Assembly (NCBI GenBank): GCA_024636405.1 | Contig: JAGXHC010000108.1 | Span: 1 to 7,964, forward strand | Direction of reading: 5' to 3' | Source of the DNA: Sulfitobacter sp. | GTDB taxonomy: Bacteria; Pseudomonadota; Alphaproteobacteria; Rhodobacterales; Rhodobacteraceae | DNA: 7,964 nt | Shown: positions 1-7,964 of the stretch, piece by piece | Numbering within the stretch: position 1 is the first letter of the stretch | Layout: each line of letters opens with the position of its first letter | Position numbers and translations under genes: made by a program | Notes under the pieces: generated by a model | The model's input: only the letters and a program-made list of their open reading frames with translations | Told to the model about the DNA's origin: nothing | Database searches by the model: none

Positions 1-332
1 ACTACCATTGCCATCGACGGAAAATGGCGTCCCAGAACCTCGCGGTACGCGCGGCCGACCTCGGCCTGTGCCGCCAGATATTCAGCCTTGTCGGTCACAT
101 ACCAGGTCAAACGCATGATATCCTCCGGCACACCGCCCGCCGCTTCGACGACGGCGCGAATGTTCAGCAGCGCCTGCTTCATCTGACCGATGAAATCATG
201 CGCCTCGAACTTCTGATCAGCGGTCCAGCCGATCTGGCCACCGACAAAAAGATGTCCGTCCGCGCTGAGCATGCCGTTTGCATAGCCTTTTGCGGGGGCC
301 CAGCCTTCGGGTTGAATGGTGCGATGTGACAT
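1..332 (-). CDS. RidA/YjgF-YER057c-UK114 family protein (N-terminal ~110 residues; cut by left edge)
   Basis: Small Rid-superfamily protein, open to the window edge with no stop seen. 110 residues are visible of a usual ~125-135. The ATG at 332..330 is preceded by AAAGGA at a good distance, 39 bases after the upstream ATPase gene on the same strand, so it looks like an operon member. Family signs are the strand around residues 28-35 (LFVGGQIG), the helix with VVEAAGG at 61-67, and the block RLTWYVTDKAEYL at 74-86. Archetypal RidA is a cytosolic trimer that hydrolyses reactive enamines/imines to ketones plus ammonia, using an arginine in a FPARS-like segment (Arg105 in E. coli). Here that segment reads FPSMAMV at 104-110, with Met107 at the arginine position. 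The protein is therefore probably not a classical imine deaminase but one of the arginine-less Rid groups. A role in the neighbouring anthraniloyl-CoA route is inferred from context only. Confidence 0.88.
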   Translation of the reverse strand, partial: MSHRTIQPEGWAPAKGYANGMLSADGHLFVGGQIGWTADQKFEAHDFIGQMKQALLNIRAVVEAAGGVPEDIMRLTWYVTDKAEYLAAQAEVGRAYREVLGRHFPSMAMV

Positions 333-371: not shown

Positions 372-1061
372 TCAGACACCCAGATATTGATCGGCCACGG
401 AACGGTCCAGTTCCGCCATTTCACCAGCCCAAACGCTGCGTCCTCTTTCAAGGATCACAGCCCGGTCCGCGATGCGCCGCAGTTCGGCAAGTGATTTATC
501 CACAACGATAAGCGCCAGTCCGGTATCGCGCTTGAGCGTCGCCACGGCGTCCCATATTTCCTGACGCACAACCGGGGCAAGCCCTTCGGTCGCCTCATCC
601 AGGATCAGCAGCGTGGGGTTGGTCATCAGGGCGCGCCCGATGGCCAGCATCTGTTGTTCACCCCCCGAAAGCGATCCGGCGATCTGGTCACGGCGCTCTC
701 CCAGACGGGGGAACAGGGCACAGACACCGCTGTAATCCCATGCACCGGGGCGCGCGGCGGCGTGCAGGTTCTCATGCACCGTGAGCGGCGCGAAACAGCG
801 ACGCCCCTCCGGCACCAGCCCCAAGCCCGCCTGCGCGGCACGAAAGCTGGGCAGATTGCCAATGTCGCGCCCGTCGAAATGAAGCGTGCCGCCGGAATGT
901 TTCAGCATCCGGCAGATCACCTTGATCGTCGATGATTTGCCCATGCCGTTGCGGCCCATCAGGGCACATACCTCACCCGGCTCCAACGTCAGATCAACGC
1001 CGAAAAGCGCTTGCGATGGGCCATAAGACGCTGTGATGCCCCGCAATTCCAGAAAACTCAT
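372..1061 (-). CDS. HAAT-type ABC transporter ATP-binding protein, LivF-type
   Basis: Second of two cytoplasmic ATPases of the importer, 229 aa, close to the usual ~233-237 for LivF. Visible motifs: Walker A GRNGMGKSS (36-44), the LivF-style VPEGRR segment (83-88) in the Q-loop region, signature LSGGEQQ (131-137), and Walker B LLILDE (151-156) followed by ATEGLAP. The switch position, His in most ABC ATPases and often Gln in LivF, is Lys189 here (IVVDKS). The D-loop region has DEATEG where DEPSxG is more usual. Both traits are known in some LivF-like branches, so they may be lineage features, but they suggest unequal ATP sites in the LivG-LivF pair. The ATG overlaps the stop of the livG-type gene by four bases (ATGA), and a GAGGA motif lies six bases before the start. 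The gene powers the two permeases encoded just upstream. Substrate unproven. Confidence 0.93.
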   Translation of the reverse strand: MSFLELRGITASYGPSQALFGVDLTLEPGEVCALMGRNGMGKSSTIKVICRMLKHSGGTLHFDGRDIGNLPSFRAAQAGLGLVPEGRRCFAPLTVHENLHAAARPGAWDYSGVCALFPRLGERRDQIAGSLSGGEQQMLAIGRALMTNPTLLILDEATEGLAPVVRQEIWDAVATLKRDTGLALIVVDKSLAELRRIADRAVILERGRSVWAGEMAELDRSVADQYLGV

Positions 1062-1816
1062 GCCGCGTCCTCTGCGCCAAGATACGCCTCGCGTACCAAG
1101 GGGTCGGCCTTGATCTGCTCTGCCGATCCGGTTGCGATCACCTTGCCGTACACCAGCACTGAAATGCGGTCCGCCAGCGCAAAGACCGCGTCCATGTCAT
1201 GTTCCACTAGCAAAGTCGGGGCTTCGCTGCGCAAGCTGTCAAGAAACCCGGTCAGACGTTTGGACCCCGACCCACCCAACCCTGCCATCGGTTCGTCCAT
1301 CAAGAATACTTTGGGCTTCAGCGTCAGGGCCACCGCGACCTCCAACTGACGCCGCTGACCGTGGGACAGATCTGCCGTGCGCTTGGCGGCGTGATCCGCC
1401 AGCCCGACACGTTCCAGCGCGGCCATCGCGCGTTCGCGCAAATCCTGCCGCGCCATCACGGGCCGGAAAAACCGCATCACGCGCCCCTCCTGCCCCAACG
1501 CGCCCAGCACGGCATTCTGAAGCACCGTGAAATCCATCGCCAGCGATGATATCTGGAATGTCCGCCCCAGCCCCGCCCGCGCCCGCACCACCGTCGAAAG
1601 CGCAGTTACGTCGCGCCCTGCGAACTTGATCACGCCCGCGTCGGGGCGCAAGCCACCGGCGATCTGCTTGATCAGCGTGGATTTGCCCGCCCCGTTGGGC
1701 CCGATCAGCGCATGGATTTCGCCGGGCTGAAGGGTGAGCGACACGTCGTCGGTTGCCTTTAACGCGCCAAAGCTCTTGCGCAGGCCGTGCACCTCAAGCA
1801 GTGGCTGATCAGTCAT
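1058..1816 (-). CDS. HAAT-type ABC transporter ATP-binding protein, LivG-type
   Basis: First ATPase of the importer, 252 aa from the chosen start. Visible motifs: Walker A GPNGAGKST (39-47), Q-loop Gln88 in GRTFQIS, signature LSHGQRR (150-156), Walker B VFLMDE (170-175) and switch His206 in LLVEHDMD. The long insert between Q-loop and signature and the C-terminal tail ending near VREAYLGAED are typical of LivG/BCA_ABC_TP_C proteins. The frame could extend to a TTG at 1837, but a near-perfect Shine-Dalgarno (GGGAGGTG) lies inside that extension at the right distance from the ATG at 1816, so MTDQPLLEV is taken as the start. It overlaps the end of the permease gene by eight bases and the livF-type gene by four, implying translational coupling. 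The region after Walker B (GLGGSGSKRL) departs from the usual GLNPxE pattern of LivG, a mild oddity. Confidence 0.94.
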   Translation of the reverse strand: MTDQPLLEVHGLRKSFGALKATDDVSLTLQPGEIHALIGPNGAGKSTLIKQIAGGLRPDAGVIKFAGRDVTALSTVVRARAGLGRTFQISSLAMDFTVLQNAVLGALGQEGRVMRFFRPVMARQDLRERAMAALERVGLADHAAKRTADLSHGQRRQLEVAVALTLKPKVFLMDEPMAGLGGSGSKRLTGFLDSLRSEAPTLLVEHDMDAVFALADRISVLVYGKVIATGSAEQIKADPLVREAYLGAEDAA

Positions 1817-2795
1817 GCGCCACCTCCCGGCCGGCAATCGTGCCGATCAATCCGCCCCGCGCAAACAGTACCACCAACAGCAAAAGCAGCCCCAGATAGA
1901 CGTGCCAATAGTCCGACAAGCCACCCAGCACATGTTCCAACAGGATAAACAACGCCGCCCCGGCGACAGGACCAAACAGCCGCCCGACCCCGCCCAGAAT
2001 GACAAAAACCATAATCTCGCCGCTGGTCTGCCAGCTGAACATCACCGGGCTGACAAAGCGGTTGAGATCGGCAAAAAGCGCGCCCGCGAGCCCGGTGACC
2101 GCGCCCGACAGCACAAACGCCACCAGCCGCAACCGGTACGGCGCAAGGCCCACCGTCTCGACCCGCTCTGAATTCTGCCGCGCCGCCGACAGCGCCAGAC
2201 CGAAGGGCGACCGCGCCAGCATCCCTGCAAACAGCAGCACCACAGCCAGCACGCCAAACGATATCCAGAAAAATGGCAACGGTGCCAATGTATTGACCCC
2301 CGGAAAGCCGTTTCGCAGATAAACCGACAGACCGTCTTCGCCGCCGTAAGCAGGCCATGAGATCGCGAAATAATAGAGCATCTGACCAAAGGCCAGCGTG
2401 ATCATAATGAAATAGACCCCGGAGGTGCGCAGGCTCAGCGCCCCGATTGCCAACGCCCCAAGGCCTGCGATGCAGACCGCCGCCAGCCAGATCAACGGCA
2501 TGGATTTGGTGCCTTCGATCAAAAAGGGCGTCTGCATCAGCGGCGTATAGGTTTGCGCGTGGAATGCCAGGATGCCCATGGCATAGCCGCCCAGCCCGAA
2601 GAATGCCGCGTGGCCAAAGCTGATCAACCCGCCAAGGCCCAAGGCGATGTTAAGCCCGACACCGGCCAGCGCCAGGATCGCCGCCTTGGTCGCCAGTGTG
2701 ATAATGAAAGGTTCATCCAGAAAATGCGCGATCAGCGCGGTGCCGGGCAACAGCGCAAACAAGGCGATGTTCAACAAGGTCTCGCGGCGCATCAT
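1809..2795 (-). CDS. HAAT-type ABC transporter permease, LivM-type
   Basis: Inner-membrane permease of the branched-chain/hydrophobic amino acid transporter class, 328 aa, normal for LivM. Hydrophobic segments appear at about 8-25, 33-52, 60-79, 101-122, 126-146, 175-193, 223-242, 260-287 and 297-313. The early signature FGHAAFFGLGGY (60-71) matches the LivM-type motif. The cytoplasmic coupling loop follows FGLALSAARQN (198-208) with Glu210 and the VGLAPYRLRL run (215-224), where LivM proteins contact the ATPases. The gene starts ATGATG, with GGGGA six bases before the first ATG, and overlaps the LivH-type stop by four bases. It pairs with the LivH-type permease to form the channel. No frameshift or missing segment is seen. 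The substrate cannot be read from the sequence; the flanking tryptophan/anthranilate genes suggest an aromatic compound. Confidence 0.94.
   Translation of the reverse strand: MMRRETLLNIALFALLPGTALIAHFLDEPFIITLATKAAILALAGVGLNIALGLGGLISFGHAAFFGLGGYAMGILAFHAQTYTPLMQTPFLIEGTKSMPLIWLAAVCIAGLGALAIGALSLRTSGVYFIMITLAFGQMLYYFAISWPAYGGEDGLSVYLRNGFPGVNTLAPLPFFWISFGVLAVVLLFAGMLARSPFGLALSAARQNSERVETVGLAPYRLRLVAFVLSGAVTGLAGALFADLNRFVSPVMFSWQTSGEIMVFVILGGVGRLFGPVAGAALFILLEHVLGGLSDYWHVYLGLLLLLVVLFARGGLIGTIAGREVAHD
1821..1828 (-). promoter_or_regulatory. Ribosome binding site deciding the LivG-type start
   Basis: GGGAGGTG on the minus strand, with its GGAGG core six bases before the ATG at 1816. It lies within the seven-codon extension that would be needed for the TTG at 1837, and so argues for the shorter protein. 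It also lies inside the end of the permease coding sequence. Confidence 0.75.
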
Positions 2796-3712
2796 GTGTG
2801 TTCCCCAAAAAGCCCGGTAGGCTTGAACAGCAGCACCGCCGCCATCAGGATATAAATCGACATGGACGCCAGCGCCGAGCCAACGGAGGTGGCGGACGAC
2901 GGGTCCATGAAGCTGGCAAACAGCAGCGGCAACAGCACAGAGCCAAGCGTGTCGGTCAGCCCCACCAGCAGCGCCCCCACCAGCGCGCCTTTGATTGATC
3001 CGATGCCACCGATCACGATCACCACAAAGGCGAGGATCAGCACCGGTTCACCCATACCGACCTGCACCGATAGGATCGCGCCGACCAGCGCACCGGCCAA
3101 GCCTGCAAGCGCCGCGCCAAGCGCGAAGACCAGCGTGTAAAGCTTTGATATGTCTACACCAAGTGCGGCAATCATTTCGCGGTCCGCTTCGCCTGCGCGG
3201 ATCTGGATGCCGATGCGGGTGCGCGCAATCAGCGCAAAAAGCCCCGCCGCCACCACCAGCCCTACGGCGATGATCAGCAGGCGGTAGGCCGGATAAAGGA
3301 TGCCACCGGGCAATGTCACCGGCCCGGACAACGCCGCCGGCACATCAAGATAAAGCGGGAAAGACCCGAACAGCCAACGCGTGCCTTCAGAGAATATCAG
3401 GATCAGCGCAAAGGTGGCCAGCACCTGATCCAGATGATCGCGATCATAAAGTCTGCGGATCACCAGCAGTTCGATCACCGCCCCAGCCGCCGCCGCCGCC
3501 GCAAGCGATGCAACCAGCGCCAGCACAAAGGATCCCGTTGCCCCAGCCACCGCCGCTGCGGCAAACGCGCCGACCATGAACAGCGATCCGTGGGCAAGAT
3601 TGATCAGCCCCATGACCCCAAAGATAAGCGTCAGACCGGCGGCCATGAGAAAAAGCATGATGCCCGATTGCAGACCGTTGAGGATCTGTTCAATCAGCAG
3701 AATGGTGGTCAT
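2792..3712 (-). CDS. HAAT-type ABC transporter permease, LivH-type
   Basis: Other inner-membrane permease of the importer, 306 aa. The LivH-type signature is near the N terminus (GVMGLINLAHGSLFMVG, 32-48). The coupling loop is RTRIGIQIRAGEADREMIAALGVD (164-187), followed by hydrophobic segments at about 191-214 and 224-236. Further membrane stretches lie at about 17-38, 46-82, 97-111, 143-162 and 284-297. The start ATG at 3712 is preceded only by a distant AGGGG run (about 14 bases away), so initiation looks weaker than for the binding-protein gene. That fits the lower amount of permease needed. Residues 71-76 are six alanines encoded by five GCG codons plus GCT, a simple repeat inside a membrane helix. 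The gene lies downstream of a terminator-like hairpin and is coupled to the LivM-type gene by an ATGA overlap. Confidence 0.94.
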   Translation of the reverse strand: MTTILLIEQILNGLQSGIMLFLMAAGLTLIFGVMGLINLAHGSLFMVGAFAAAAVAGATGSFVLALVASLAAAAAAGAVIELLVIRRLYDRDHLDQVLATFALILIFSEGTRWLFGSFPLYLDVPAALSGPVTLPGGILYPAYRLLIIAVGLVVAAGLFALIARTRIGIQIRAGEADREMIAALGVDISKLYTLVFALGAALAGLAGALVGAILSVQVGMGEPVLILAFVVIVIGGIGSIKGALVGALLVGLTDTLGSVLLPLLFASFMDPSSATSVGSALASMSIYILMAAVLLFKPTGLFGEHT

Positions 3713-3819: not shown

Positions 3820-4965
3820 TTACATCTTGCAGTCGACGCCGTAGACGTCCTGATGATCCGCCGCAGCGACGCCCAACGTCTTGTTGGTTACGACATCACC
3901 TTCCTTGACCACTTCACGCATGTAGATGTCATGGATCGGGTGGTGGTTGGGTGCAAAGCTGAACTTGCCGCGCACGGATTCAAAGTCAGCCTCTTCCAGC
4001 GCCGCCTGAAACGCAGCGGTGTCCTTGACGTCGGCCTTGCCCATCGCGCTGATCAGCAGATTGGCGGTGTCATATCCTTGTGCCGCATAAAGCGATGGCA
4101 GACGGCCATATTCGGCCTGAAAATCCGCAACGAATTTCGTATTCGCTGCGTTGTCCAGATCCTTGGCCCAATGTGACGTGTTTTTCACGCCTATAGCTGC
4201 ATCACCGATCGCACCCAAAATACCCTGATCAAAGCTGAAAGCCGGGCCCATGACGTTCTTTTCCACGCCGGAGCCTGCGTATTGCTTCATGAACGAAATC
4301 CCCATGCCGCCCGGCAGGAAGAAATAGATCGTATCCGCATCAGAGGCGCGCATCTGCGCGATCTCAGCGGCATAATCGGTTTGACCCAGTTTGGTATAGA
4401 CCTCTTCCGCAATCTCACCTTTGTAGAAGCGCTTGAATCCTGCGATCATGTCCTGACCGGCAGGGTAATTCGGTGCCATCAGGAAAACTTTCTTGATGTC
4501 GTTTTCATTGGCCCACATGCCCGCCGCCTCGTTGAAGGCATCGTTCTGCCAGGAAACGTTGAAGTAAAGCGGGCTGCACCCTTTGCCTGCCAATGCCGAA
4601 GGTCCGGCGTTGGGGCTGAGGTAAAATTTGCCCTGTGCTGTCGCAGCAGGCACCACCGCCATGGCAAGGTTCGACCAGATGATCCCGGTCAGCACATCGA
4701 CCTTCTCGGACTGGATCATCTTGTCAGCCAGTTGCACGGCGATATCGGGCTTCTGCTGATCGTCTTCGGTGACAATTTCCAGCATTTCGTTGCCCTTGGC
4801 CGCCAGCATGAAGCCGTCGCGCACGTCAATGCCCAGACCCGCACCCCCGCCCGAAAGCGTTGTGATCATGCCAGCCTTGACCTTGCCGCCATGGGCATCG
4901 GCCCATGCCCCGCCCGCACCGAGCGCCGCAATGGACGCCGCGAGAATGAGTGACTTGATTTTCAT
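3820..4965 (-). CDS. Periplasmic substrate-binding protein of a HAAT-type ABC importer
   Basis: Secreted ligand-binding component, 381 aa, of the type-1 periplasmic binding fold (Peripla_BP_6/LivJ-like). It starts MKIKSLILAAS with a Sec signal peptide: a lysine-containing N terminus, a hydrophobic core at 6-18 and a likely cut after Ala-Trp-Ala at 20-22, leaving mature DAHGGKVKAG. The lobe-1 opening KVKAGMITTLSGGGAGLG (28-45), the segment VLTGIIWSNLAMAVVPAA (91-108) and the C-terminal FAPNHHPIHDIYMREVV (337-353) are typical of this family, including members found with aromatic-degradation genes. There are only two cysteines after the signal peptide, at 130 and 379. There is no lipobox, so a soluble periplasmic protein is expected. 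A frame extension to 5010 would bury the signal peptide behind 15 charged residues; the ATG at 4965 with AAGGGAG six to seven bases upstream is preferred. Ligand unknown; tryptophan, kynurenine or anthranilate are contextual guesses. Confidence 0.94.
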   Translation of the reverse strand: MKIKSLILAASIAALGAGGAWADAHGGKVKAGMITTLSGGGAGLGIDVRDGFMLAAKGNEMLEIVTEDDQQKPDIAVQLADKMIQSEKVDVLTGIIWSNLAMAVVPAATAQGKFYLSPNAGPSALAGKGCSPLYFNVSWQNDAFNEAAGMWANENDIKKVFLMAPNYPAGQDMIAGFKRFYKGEIAEEVYTKLGQTDYAAEIAQMRASDADTIYFFLPGGMGISFMKQYAGSGVEKNVMGPAFSFDQGILGAIGDAAIGVKNTSHWAKDLDNAANTKFVADFQAEYGRLPSLYAAQGYDTANLLISAMGKADVKDTAAFQAALEEADFESVRGKFSFAPNHHPIHDIYMREVVKEGDVVTNKTLGVAAADHQDVYGVDCKM

Positions 4966-5050: not shown

Positions 5051-5072
5051 TCACGCGTCAGGTGACGCGTGA
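5051..5072. repeat. Perfect 10-bp inverted repeat spanning the kynU stop codon
   Basis: Arms TCACGCGTCA and TGACGCGTGA are exact reverse complements separated by two bases. The kynU stop codon (5060..5058) lies in one arm. As a hairpin it would have nine pairs and a four-base loop. In the gene direction no T tract follows, so it is not a standard terminator for the kyn genes. On the plus strand it is followed by a T-rich stretch (TTTGATTTTGTATTTG), so it could end antisense transcription coming from the transporter side. Alternatives are an mRNA-stabilising 3' hairpin for ligase-kynA-kynU, or a dimeric regulator's operator for a transporter promoter in the 92-base gap, where I could not identify convincing -35/-10 boxes. 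Confidence 0.55.
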
Positions 5073-6248
5073 TTTGATTTTGTATTTGTCGTTGTCCCAC
5101 AGCGCATTGTTCATCACATCCTTGATGATCTGGACGGCGCGGCTGACGTCGCCCGCGTCAAGGTAGAGCGGTGTGAAGCCAAAACGCATGATATCGGGGG
5201 CGCGGAAATCACCGATCAGACCCCGGTCAATCAGCGCCTGCATCGCCGCATAGCCCTGTTCAAAACGAAACGATACCTGCGATCCGCGCACATCTGTATT
5301 CCGCGGGCTGGCCAGTTCAAGCTGCGGAATGTCACGCTCTACCTCTTCGATGAACTGCTCTTGCAGCGCCAGTGACGCCGCGCGCAGGGCGTCCATATCA
5401 ATGCCCTCCCACAGCTCCATCGCCACCTCAAGTGCGGTAAGTTGGATCACAGGCGGCGTGCCAACGCGCATCCGCTCGATCCCCTCGCCGGGCCTGTAGT
5501 TCAGTTTGAATTCAAACGGTTGCCGGTGCCCCAGCCACCCGCTGAGCGCGGGTTGCACTTTGTCCGCCAAATCGGGACGCACATAGATGAACGCAGGCGC
5601 GCCGGGGCCACCGTTGAGGTATTTATACGTGCAGCCGATGGCGAATTCACACCCTGACGCCGTCAGATCCACCGGGATCGCCCCTGCGGAATGTGCCAGA
5701 TCCCAGACCATTACGGCACCCGCCGCCTGGGCCAGTGCCGTGATCGCCATCATGTCATGCTTGCGGCCCGTGCGGTAATCAACCTCCGTCAGCATCACAG
5801 CCGCGATGTCTTCGCCCATCGCGTCGGCCACATCTTCGGGGGCCACGGTGCGCAGCTCATACCCCTGCTCCAGCAGCCCGACCAAGCCTTCCGCCATATA
5901 AAGATCAGACGGGAAGTTGCCTGTATCGCTGAGGATCACACGCCGCTCCGGGCGCATCTTTACCGCCGACGCAAGCGCCTGAAAAACCTTGATCGACAGG
6001 GTGTCGCCCATCACAACCGACCCGGCGGGCGCGCCAATGATCCGGCCAACCATATTGCCGACGCGCGCGGGCTGTTCCATCCAGCCGGCCTTGTTCCAGC
6101 CCCGGATCAGCATTTCACCCCATTCATCGCTCAGCATTTGCTGCACCCGCGCCGCAACCGCCTTTGGCATCGGACCAAGCGAATTACCGTCCAGATAAAT
6201 GACACCCTCGGGAAGAATGAATGCTTCTTTATTCAATATGTTAGCCAC
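5058..6248 (-). CDS. kynU: Kynureninase (EC 3.7.1.3)
   Basis: PLP-dependent cytosolic hydrolase that splits kynurenine into anthranilate and alanine (3-hydroxykynurenine is the other family substrate). 396 aa from the chosen start, normal for bacterial KynU. Landmarks in that numbering: YLDGNSLGP (18-26), FPSDLY (112-117) in the cofactor region, WDLAHSAGA (182-190) with Asp183 and His186 at cofactor-binding positions, and TYKYLNGGPG (207-216), where Lys209 should form the Schiff base with PLP. RVGTPPV at about 251-257 is also family-typical. The frame runs to a GTG at 6272 inside kynA, but the GTG at 6248..6246 has AGAGGAG seven bases upstream and overlaps the kynA stop by one base (TAGTG), so it is preferred. 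The first codons are unusually AT-rich, which should keep the initiation region unfolded. Cotranscribed with kynA and the CoA ligase, its product feeds directly to the ligase. Confidence 0.97.
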   Translation of the reverse strand: MANILNKEAFILPEGVIYLDGNSLGPMPKAVAARVQQMLSDEWGEMLIRGWNKAGWMEQPARVGNMVGRIIGAPAGSVVMGDTLSIKVFQALASAVKMRPERRVILSDTGNFPSDLYMAEGLVGLLEQGYELRTVAPEDVADAMGEDIAAVMLTEVDYRTGRKHDMMAITALAQAAGAVMVWDLAHSAGAIPVDLTASGCEFAIGCTYKYLNGGPGAPAFIYVRPDLADKVQPALSGWLGHRQPFEFKLNYRPGEGIERMRVGTPPVIQLTALEVAMELWEGIDMDALRAASLALQEQFIEEVERDIPQLELASPRNTDVRGSQVSFRFEQGYAAMQALIDRGLIGDFRAPDIMRFGFTPLYLDAGDVSRAVQIIKDVMNNALWDNDKYKIKSRVT

Positions 6249-7075
6249 TAAAGCGCTCCTCTGACATGCCACAGTTCCGGGAACAGTTCGACCTCAAGCA
6301 TCTTGCGCAAATAGGCCACGCCGTTGGTGCCACCGGTGCCGCGCTTGAACCCGATGATGCGTTCCACCGTTGTGACATGGTTGAACCGCCAGCGGCGGAA
6401 GTAATCTTCGAGATCGACGAGTTTTTCGGCCAGTTCATATAGATCCCAATGGGCTTTCGGGTTCTCGTAAACTTTCTGCCACAGGTCCTGCACAGGCTGT
6501 TTCGCCTCCCAGGCCTGCGCTTTGGGTTCACCAGCAAGCGGATCATGACCAAGCCTGCGACACAGCAGATCAATTGCCACCTGATACAGGCTTGGTTGCG
6601 CCAATTCATCCTGCAAGGCCTTCAGCGCGTCGGGGCGGTGTTCATGCACTTTCATCAAGGCACCGATGCGATTGCCAAGCAGATATTCCACCAACCGGTA
6701 CTGATGCGACTGAAATCCGGACGACTGTCCCAGCGACGGACGAAACGCGGTATATTCGCTGGGTGTCATCGTGCGCAGCACGTCCCAGGCATTATTGAGT
6801 TGCTCCAATATCCGCGCCACGCGGCTTAGCATTTTGAAAGCCGACTTCAGATCATCCTGCAACATCACCTGACGCGCGGCCTGCAATTCGTGGATAGCCA
6901 GCCGCATCCAAAGCTCGGACGTCTGGTGCTGGATGATAAACAACATCTCGTCATGGGCATCGCTCAGCGGTTTTTGCGCCGACAGGATGGCATCAAGCCC
7001 AAGGTAATCGCCATAAGACATTGCATCCGAAAAGCTCATTTTCGCGCCTTCAGAGGCGGTGTCAAAATCGCTCAT
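6248..7075 (-). CDS. kynA: Tryptophan 2,3-dioxygenase (EC 1.13.11.11)
   Basis: Heme enzyme, normally a cytosolic homotetramer, that inserts O2 into L-tryptophan to give N-formyl-L-kynurenine, the first step of the kynurenine route. 275 aa, typical of bacterial TDO. Visible signatures: [12 protein letters not shown] (20-31); [11 protein letters not shown] (46-56), where His50 corresponds to the active-site histidine (His55 in Xanthomonas TDO); [10 protein letters not shown] (121-130), with Arg127 expected to bind the substrate carboxylate; [14 protein letters not shown] (229-242), with His233 as the likely axial heme ligand; and the [12 protein letters not shown] loop (246-257). All key residues are present, so the enzyme should be active. 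The ATG overlaps the ligase stop by four bases (ATGA), with GAGGA eight bases upstream. It is the second gene of the visible catabolic block and precedes kynU. No kynB formamidase follows, unlike common kyn operons. Confidence 0.97.
6256..6262 (-). promoter_or_regulatory. Ribosome binding site deciding the kynU start
   Basis: AGAGGAG on the minus strand, seven bases before the GTG at 6248 and embedded in the last codons of kynA. It supports a TAGTG stop-start junction, with terminating ribosomes reinitiating, over the longer GTG start at 6272, which would begin within kynA. Confidence 0.75.
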
Positions 7076-7964
7076 GACGGTTTCCTCAGGGCGAAGCGTT
7101 GAATCTTGCCGGTTGGTGTCTTGGGCAGTGCGTCAATAAAAACGATGTCACGCGGGTATTTGAATGGCGCGATGGTAGCTTTAACATGGTCCTGTAACGC
7201 TTTGATCGTGCTCACATCTTTCGGTGTGCCTTCAACCAGGACGATATGCGCCTGCACGATTGATCCACGCGCCTCGTCGGGTTTGCCGACCACGCCACAT
7301 TCGCTGACAAACGGATGGCTGAGCAGCGCCGCCTCCACCTCTGGTCCGGCGATGTTATAGCCGGACGATATGATCATGTCGTCATTGCGCGCGGCAAAAT
7401 GCAGATAGCCGTCTTCGTCCATCGCAAAGCTGTCACCGGTGATGTTCCAGCCGTCGTGAACATAGATTGCCTGACGGTCATCCGCGAGATAGCGACACCC
7501 CGTCGGCCCGCGCACCGCAAGCCGCCCCACTGTGCCGCGTGGCACGTCATCACCGTTTTCGTCAATGATCCGCGCCTCGTATCCCCCCACCGGCTTGCCA
7601 GTGCAGGCGGCCTTGTGATCGTCAAAGCGGTTGGAGATGAAGATATGCAACATTTCCGTTGCACCAATTCCGTCCAGCATCGGCTTGCCCGTCTTCTTTT
7701 TCCAGTCGTGAAATACTGGCGCGGGCAATGTCTCGCCTGCGGAAACAGCCGCGCGCAGACTGCTGAGGTCCGCGCCTTCTTCCATGGCCTGCAACATTGC
7801 GCGGTAGGTCGTGGGCGCGGTAAAACACACGGTTGCTTTGTATTTTTCGATGATTTCGATCATGTTCGGCGGGCTGGCGGTTTCCAGCAGCGTCGCCGCA
7901 GCCCCGAAGCGTAAGGGGAAAATCGCCAGCCCCCCAAGGCCAAAGGTAAAGGCCAATGGCGGAG
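7072..7964 (-). CDS. 2-aminobenzoate (anthranilate)-CoA ligase, C-terminal part (cut by right edge)
   Basis: AMP-forming acyl/aryl-CoA ligase of the ANL superfamily. 296 residues are visible of a probable ~540; the frame is open to the edge, and the apparent start at 7956 is an internal Leu codon (TTG). The ATP/phosphate loop (TSGTTGxPK type) would lie outside. Visible landmarks: [12 protein letters not shown] near the edge, the [12 protein letters not shown] block (GxTE adenylation motif), WNITGD, the hinge region [23 protein letters not shown], and the C-terminal [14 protein letters not shown], whose catalytic Lys is encoded at 7107..7105. The [11 protein letters not shown] wording matches the benzoate/2-aminobenzoate-CoA ligase branch. 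Lying directly before kynA-kynU, it should convert the anthranilate made by kynureninase into anthraniloyl-CoA, using ATP and CoA. Benzoate or another aryl acid remains possible as substrate, because the acid-binding pocket is only partly visible. Confidence 0.85.

Follow-up and report, generated by a model that had tools for sequence, protein, structure and literature searches.

TdcF of Escherichia coli holds its ligand through Arg105, which is salt-bridged to the carboxylate group, and the keto oxygen of the ligand, a stand-in for the imine nitrogen, contacts the Cys107 amide and Glu120 (PMC1884159). RutC, which like the system discussed here belongs to a catabolic operon with a monooxygenase, deaminates 3-aminoacrylate, also a vinylogous enamine, but acts on a free carboxylate and needs Arg104, the R104A variant being dead (PMC8113886). 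The same source reports that rutC is dispensable for growth on uridine and that the reaction also proceeds unaided. The 2-aminomuconate deaminases of the AmnE type are Rid-family deaminases of an aromatic-amine pathway with a conserved cleft arginine, Arg117 (PMC6742747), and their substrate is a dicarboxylate formed after ring cleavage. Tryptophan occupies the Arg105 position in Rid4 and Rid7, whereas Rid5 and Rid6 have a variable residue there, not arginine, and are given no function in the available text (PMC4433059). Deaminase activity is said to be absent from the Rid4-7 proteins, all without the arginine (PMC8113886), and few arginine-less Rid proteins have been assayed, a single Rid7 by 2017 (PMC5619798).

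The closest described pathway is the aerobic 2-aminobenzoyl-CoA pathway of Azoarcus evansii, in which a ligase is followed by a monooxygenase/reductase, whose product is 2-amino-5-oxocyclohex-1-ene-1-carbonyl-CoA, and then by beta-oxidation enzymes; the available part of that account describes no Rid step (PMC4539516). Likewise, no Rid step in the anthraniloyl-CoA pathway is assigned in the titles and abstracts listed by searches of the open-licence literature, and a curated pathway resource omitted tryptophan degradation by the anthraniloyl-CoA route 'due to a lack of knowledge' (PMC9007349).

The stretch of DNA analysed here (the window, 7,964 nt) encodes the following features, all on the minus strand.

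1..332 (frame 3..332), minus strand: 5' part of a Rid-family (PF01042) gene, 110 codons, with the ATG at 330-332, the 3' end past the left edge, and Met107 at the Arg105 position
372..1061, minus strand: branched-chain-amino-acid-type ABC transporter ATP-binding protein (LivF-like)
1058..1837, minus strand: ABC transporter ATP-binding protein (LivG-like, PF00005 and PF12399), whose true start may be an internal ATG
1809..2795, minus strand: ABC transporter permease (LivM-like, PF02653)
2792..3712, minus strand: ABC transporter permease (LivH-like, PF02653)
3820..4965, minus strand: ABC transporter substrate-binding protein (PF13458)
5058..6272, minus strand: kynureninase (TIGR01814, 285.7 bits, above the cut-off of 246.4)
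6248..7075, minus strand: tryptophan 2,3-dioxygenase (PF03301; TIGR03036, 387.5 bits, just below the cut-off of 390.7)
7072..7962, minus strand: 3' part of a benzoate/2-aminobenzoate-CoA-ligase-family protein (TIGR02262, 256 bits over part of the model; cut-off 375.25)

Kynureninase yields anthranilate and alanine. The full-length relative of the ligase (L003:1683-3305) scores 356 bits against the TIGR02262 cut-off of 375.25 and is 52% identical to the ligase of plasmid pAL1; activity has been demonstrated for a pAL1 anthranilate-CoA ligase (PMC3534580). The 7,964-nt window contains no anthraniloyl-CoA monooxygenase/reductase (MONO; NF006101, named 'bifunctional salicylyl-CoA 5-hydroxylase/oxidoreductase' in NCBIfam), which in relatives lies upstream.

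The Rid fragment in the window is 110 residues long and ends in ...RHFPSMAMV. A 133-residue protein, P0001, matches it over all 110 residues and supplies the C-terminus, continuing VVAVLIEDEAKVEIEATAVIKPR; the last 23 residues discussed here are taken from P0001, outside the window. The full-length copy scores 69.6 bits with PF01042 (gathering cut-off 27.3), which places it in the Rid family. The initial annotation had held that Met107, in the motif FPSMAMV, replaces the arginine of RidA, and alignment with E. coli TdcF and RidA confirms this: Met107 falls on TdcF Arg105 (the reference sequences RidA, TdcF, RutC, YoaB, and YjgH were taken from MG1655). That the missing C-terminus might provide an arginine in the same pocket is excluded, because P0001 has no substitute near the pocket; its only candidate is the terminal Arg133, at a position that is empty in 55 of 62 aligned rows.

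The window-type Rid shares the fold, length, and Pfam family of RidA and TdcF, as well as the Glu120 position (Glu123 here) and the Tyr17 position, but is only 30–35% identical to the two E. coli proteins and differs from them in having Met for Arg105, Gly for Asn88, Trp for Val35, and a four-residue insertion after TdcF Phe84. It scores below the cut-offs of TIGR00004 (52.6 bits vs 106.25) and of the RutC model TIGR03610 (34.2 bits vs 169.1), with Met at the RutC Arg104 position. The methionine also differs from the tryptophan of Rid4 and Rid7, and is compatible with the variable residue of Rid5 and Rid6. By these sequence comparisons the protein is a Rid protein but not a RidA as defined by the arginine, not RutC, and not Rid7. 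An AF2 monomer model built from 15 close sequences (pLDDT 91.2) has the Rid fold; Foldseek aligns it to goat, human, and Bacillus subtilis Rid members at a TM of about 0.8, and the best 50 of its 983 PDB matches are all Rid-family proteins. An apparent fusion of Rid to another domain in one genome (G179, a 797-aa open frame) was discarded, since the sequence ahead of the Rid start looks unrelated by eye.

A scan of one genome per species returned 317 relatives. The 80 best loci were retained, and by title nearly all of them belong to Rhodobacteraceae or other Alphaproteobacteria. The locus of a Roseobacter relative (L003) runs ECH, acyl-CoA dehydrogenase, ligase, dioxygenase, kynureninase, transporter, and Rid, the last adjoining a convergent zinc transporter, and its MONO, oriented like Rid, is found 11.6 kb upstream of that gene. 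Many other species have the order MONO, SDR, MarR, ECH, acyl-CoA dehydrogenase, ligase, and Rid, with no tryptophan genes between. At least one of MONO, ECH, dehydrogenase, and ligase is found in 55 of the 80 loci, ten have transporter or tryptophan genes only, and 15 have none of these. An association with tryptophan genes instead of the CoA pathway is disfavoured, as 27 of the 55 loci with a core gene have no tryptophan gene (some contigs are short).

Two loci have peculiarities of their own. One contig titled Nocardioides marinus DP1N28-1 (L068, JAHVJD010000002.1) encodes at 10001-10390 a Rhodobacteraceae-type Rid 73% identical to that of the window, and given its actinobacterial title this record is probably mislabelled or mixed. 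On a Ruegeria pomeroyi megaplasmid (L137), RebB-family R-body genes at 8461-13448 lie directly downstream of the anthranilate-operon Rid.

The genomic link between this Rid and MONO is firm. The co-occurrence that the initial annotation put forward for checking is seen in 41 of 41 and in 24 of 25 Rid genomes of two samples, and it extends over several phyla and two domains. The first sample comprised 299 Pseudomonadota genomes drawn evenly around G001, a genome chosen for its Rid. MONO (E<=1e-200) is present in 42 of these, in 39 of them above the curated cut-off, and Rid (E<=1e-20 with a profile built from 15 Rid sequences) in 41, all of which hold MONO (Fisher p = 7.8e-50). Seven weak matches (E 1e-26 to 1e-23) were left out before the pairs were counted; the four that were read have one Met and three Ser. 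The two genes lie within 15 kb of each other in 36 of the 41 genomes, on different contigs in three, and far apart in two. In G127 a MONO-to-ligase operon is accompanied by a lone, distant Rid; in G095 Rid belongs to a ligase-tryptophan operon and the only MONO listed, below the curated cut-off, is 1.8 Mb away.

The second sample was taken from the order to which G237 belongs (200 genomes, G237 included) and partly overlaps the first, with six MONO-bearing genomes common to both. It contains MONO in 26 genomes, a strong Rid (E<=1e-50) in 25, and both in 24; 20 of the 24 pairs are on one contig at most 17 kb apart. Eleven weak Rid matches (E 9e-18 to 1e-15) were left out, and the five read have two Ser, two Arg, and one Ala. 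MONO was scored from three candidates per genome in the first sample and four in the second, so some copies may be missed. MONO was also found in all 12 Rid-bearing genomes of one set checked for it anywhere (that of L043 among them) and in 18 of a set of 19, 17 times above the curated cut-off. The 19 had been picked because their Rid locus showed no core operon gene in the available stretch, and represent 14 of the 15 loci without any of the genes above and five of the ten. MONO and Rid are therefore kept in one genome even when they have ceased to be neighbours. One metagenomic locus (L072, a MAG) has Rid, and a search of that genome found no MONO.

The pairing also occurs in Actinomycetota, Deinococcota, and haloarchaea. 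MONO matches 95 (E<=1e-100) and Rid 91 (E<=1e-15) named plasmid records, the listings covering part of the 95 and of the 91–99. Of 14 loci examined around plasmid Rid matches, 13 are of the Met/Leu type and one, from Sphingobium (L136), has Arg. MONO is within the stretch in 11 of the 13, including those of Arthrobacter pAL1, Rhodococcus, Streptantibioticus, Deinococcus, Natronococcus, Haladaptatus, and Natronosalvus; the stretches of the Sphingomonas and Gemmatirosa loci contain other pathway genes and no MONO. In the haloarchaeal MONO clusters, an extra gene for a luciferase-like (LLM) flavin oxidoreductase immediately precedes MONO (L127 8399-9262; L128 1543-2415; L138 11295-12155).

In an alignment of 62 Met/Leu-type rows, which leaves out three Ser-type rows of the same branch, the Arg105 position is Met in 61 and Leu in one, a haloarchaeon; the glutamate at the Glu120 position and Tyr or Phe at position 17 are kept in all 62, and Gly occupies the TdcF Asn88 position in 61. 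Met is present in all 46 strong profile matches of the 299 Pseudomonadota genomes, in all 25 strong loci of the second sample, and in all 80 related loci, although the last count is biased by one of six search words that contained that Met. It occurs in none of 30 background Rid loci (30 of 64 PF01042 matches from eight genomes, whose Met-type copies lie outside the 30), where the residue is Arg, Trp, Ser, Thr, Ala, or Asn; tryptophan is found in four of these 30 and in E. coli YjgH. A 76-row tree, built on 133 columns and with many weak forks, joins 37 Met/Leu-type rows and three Ser-type paralogs in one branch with support 100/94. The Ser-type proteins (motif FPPST; L187, L188, and L189) are second Rid copies from G171, G047, and G229, genomes that also hold a Met-type Rid and MONO.

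We propose that this Rid probably serves aerobic anthraniloyl-CoA degradation as an enamine hydrolase (deaminase), acting on 2-amino-5-oxocyclohex-1-ene-1-carbonyl-CoA. Starting from the observed gene context, co-occurrence, residue pattern, and single clade, we predict its substrate, its reaction, the roles of its residues, and the ring opening as follows. Tryptophan reaches anthranilate through the dioxygenase and kynureninase, together with a formamidase, which was not seen in the window; the ligase would form anthraniloyl-CoA, and the flavoprotein MONO, by its published reaction, converts this to the enamine-CoA. The latter would bind in the intersubunit cleft of the Rid trimer, where Glu123 and a backbone NH would direct water to the amino-bearing carbon, giving ammonia and 2,5-dioxocyclohexane-1-carbonyl-CoA, a beta-keto thioester that could then be opened by a crotonase-family protein or an FAH-family hydrolase. 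The changes of Arg105 to Met and Asn88 to Gly would make for a neutral, roomier cleft, and the carboxylate-gripping arginine would be dispensable because the substrate has a CoA thioester at that place, not a free carboxylate. The alignment and the monomer model suggest that CoA could fit in the cleft.

Rid occurs with both downstream gene sets, ECH plus acyl-CoA dehydrogenase and FAH plus small cupin (Arthrobacter, Rhodococcus, and Rhizobium leguminosarum), and its substrate should therefore precede ring opening, at the MONO product. In anthranilate-grown Arthrobacter Rue61a, whose plasmid pAL1 carries a Met/Leu-type Rid, and only in cells so grown, a CoA ester of C7H8O4 was reported, perhaps cyclohexanedione-carboxyl-CoA (PMC3534580); the calculated formula of 2,5-dioxocyclohexanecarboxylic acid is C7H8O4. 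However, the cells were extracted and quenched in formic acid before that measurement and the enamine MONO product is reported to be unstable below pH 5 (PMC3534580), so that the ester may be a product of the work-up, which slightly lowers our confidence. At neutral pH the enamine would presumably require a catalyst, yet it may also hydrolyse by itself, given that RutC is not needed on uridine.

In the initial annotation, Rid was suggested to bind, hydrolyse, or isomerise this intermediate, or to protect the pathway from it, by chemistry different from that of RidA. Hydrolysis of a vinylogous enamine fits the co-occurrence, but the different chemistry finds no support: the catalytic-type glutamate and the Tyr/Phe are invariant and what is most clearly lost is the carboxylate anchor, which makes RidA-like hydrolysis of a carboxylate-free substrate the simpler reading.

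Rid could instead be a damage-control protein off the main route that hydrolyses or sequesters a leaked reactive imine or enamine of MONO, such as its dienone in the imine form, although we regard this as unlikely. Such a function would follow the RidA paradigm of protecting cell enzymes from 2-aminoacrylate; in one model Rid proteins speed reactions that also run unaided, rutC is dispensable on uridine (PMC8113886), and Leisingera-type genomes keep an unlinked Rid. Against it, most genomes (36 of 41 and 20 of 24) have Rid within the catabolic cluster, in many cases as the gene that follows the ligase, and the MONO product still holds a nitrogen that must be lost, so that a role on the pathway needs no extra assumption.

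If the protein acted once the ring has been cleaved, with an amino-muconate-like compound from a 5-hydroxyanthranilate route as its substrate, it would be a counterpart of 2-aminomuconate deaminase, and Rid-type deaminases of such products do exist (PMC6449761, PMC6742747). Small cupin, FAH, and thioesterase genes stand beside Rid in actinobacterial and some rhizobial clusters, and in G495 Rid adjoins a gentisate-dioxygenase-like cupin. We nonetheless find this improbable: ECH lies within 1.5 kb of MONO in 30 of 41 MONO loci and gentisate dioxygenase in one of 41, Rue61a fails to grow on 5-hydroxyanthranilate (PMC3534580), and the products in question bear carboxylates, for which AmnE has its conserved cleft Arg117 (PMC6742747), a residue that we infer to be equivalent to Arg105.

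That the protein merely binds the CoA ester, as a non-catalytic ligand sensor, chaperone, or scaffold, would agree with the lack of deaminase activity so far for arginine-less Rid proteins (PMC8113886) and with the history of TdcF, first regarded as a ligand-binding protein (PMC1884159). However, all 62 rows keep the catalytic-type glutamate, and the clusters already have annotated regulators of the MarR or PaaX type, which makes such a role quite improbable. A RidA-like guard of the pyridoxal-phosphate enzyme in the same operon, as might be thought from the clustering of RidA genes with PLP enzymes (PMC4433059) and the kynureninase in the window, is very hard to credit when the arginine tied to 2-aminoacrylate deamination is absent, 27 of 55 core loci have no tryptophan gene in the available stretch, and the co-occurrence partner is MONO.

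Deamination of the enamine-CoA would thus bear on a stated gap, as Rid is one conserved candidate gene for the nitrogen-releasing step after MONO. We lean, by a narrow balance, toward the wider proposal that these proteins form a distinct Rid subfamily, either new or within the functionless Rid5/6 groups, of arginine-free CoA-thioester-enamine deaminases, the missing nitrogen-releasing enzyme of the pathway in bacteria and haloarchaea. If true, this would be the first function for arginine-less Rid proteins, and Arg105 would no longer predict Rid deaminase activity, the arginine reading the substrate carboxylate and not the chemistry. It would also correct the automatic names 'RidA family protein' and 'enamine deaminase RidA'.

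The pairing with Rid could further distinguish the anthraniloyl-CoA from the salicylyl-CoA versions of the database 'salicylyl-CoA 5-hydroxylase'. In the first sample a single genome, G308, combines MONO with the lack of any match to the Rid profile. Its MONO is flanked by genes for a thioesterase, an FAH-family hydrolase, and a protein resembling gentisate dioxygenase (306 bits; curated cut-off 442), an arrangement that would be expected for salicylyl-CoA, which carries no nitrogen to lose. A nearby regulator, on the other hand, is similar to AndR, the regulator of anthranilate dioxygenase (203.9 bits, below the cut-off of 350). The two Rid proteins of G308 both have Arg. Cupriavidus taiwanensis, Caballeronia (pSBC1_4), and Novosphingobium have like clusters, and G237 has one around a second MONO copy. 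None of these five gentisate-type MONO clusters, G308 included, has a Met-type Rid in the stretch read; in Novosphingobium an Asn-type Rid lies 6 kb from the cluster. All five have a gentisate-dioxygenase-like protein and FAH, and their substrates are therefore probably nitrogen-free. Clusters with this thioesterase, gentisate-dioxygenase-like, and FAH set represent a distinct pathway that shares the monooxygenase family. Each kind of MONO is represented by one copy in G237, where Rid accompanies the MONO of the anthranilate operon, and Caballeronia sp. SBC1 has, besides the plasmid with the Rid-less MONO, another plasmid on which MONO and Rid are 4 kb apart.

A few other genomes depart from the general pattern. 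In the second sample, MONO occurs without a Met-type Rid in G338, where it stands beside a different ligase with a homologue of the anthranilate-type ligase (about 50–60% identity) some 10 kb off, and in G377, where MONO is below the curated cut-off; G404 has Rid and MONO in pieces only. G495 blurs the contrast between anthranilate and gentisate-type clusters, as its Met-type Rid and MONO are on different contigs (loci L293 and L251), each near a gentisate-dioxygenase-like gene (32–36% identity). Its Rid is beside the gentisate-dioxygenase-like cupin and an alpha/beta hydrolase, possibly a third downstream variant. Among the five gentisate-type MONO clusters (L221, L236, L237, L238, and L239), some additionally encode a racemase-like protein, a nitrilase-family protein, and subunits of indolepyruvate oxidoreductase.
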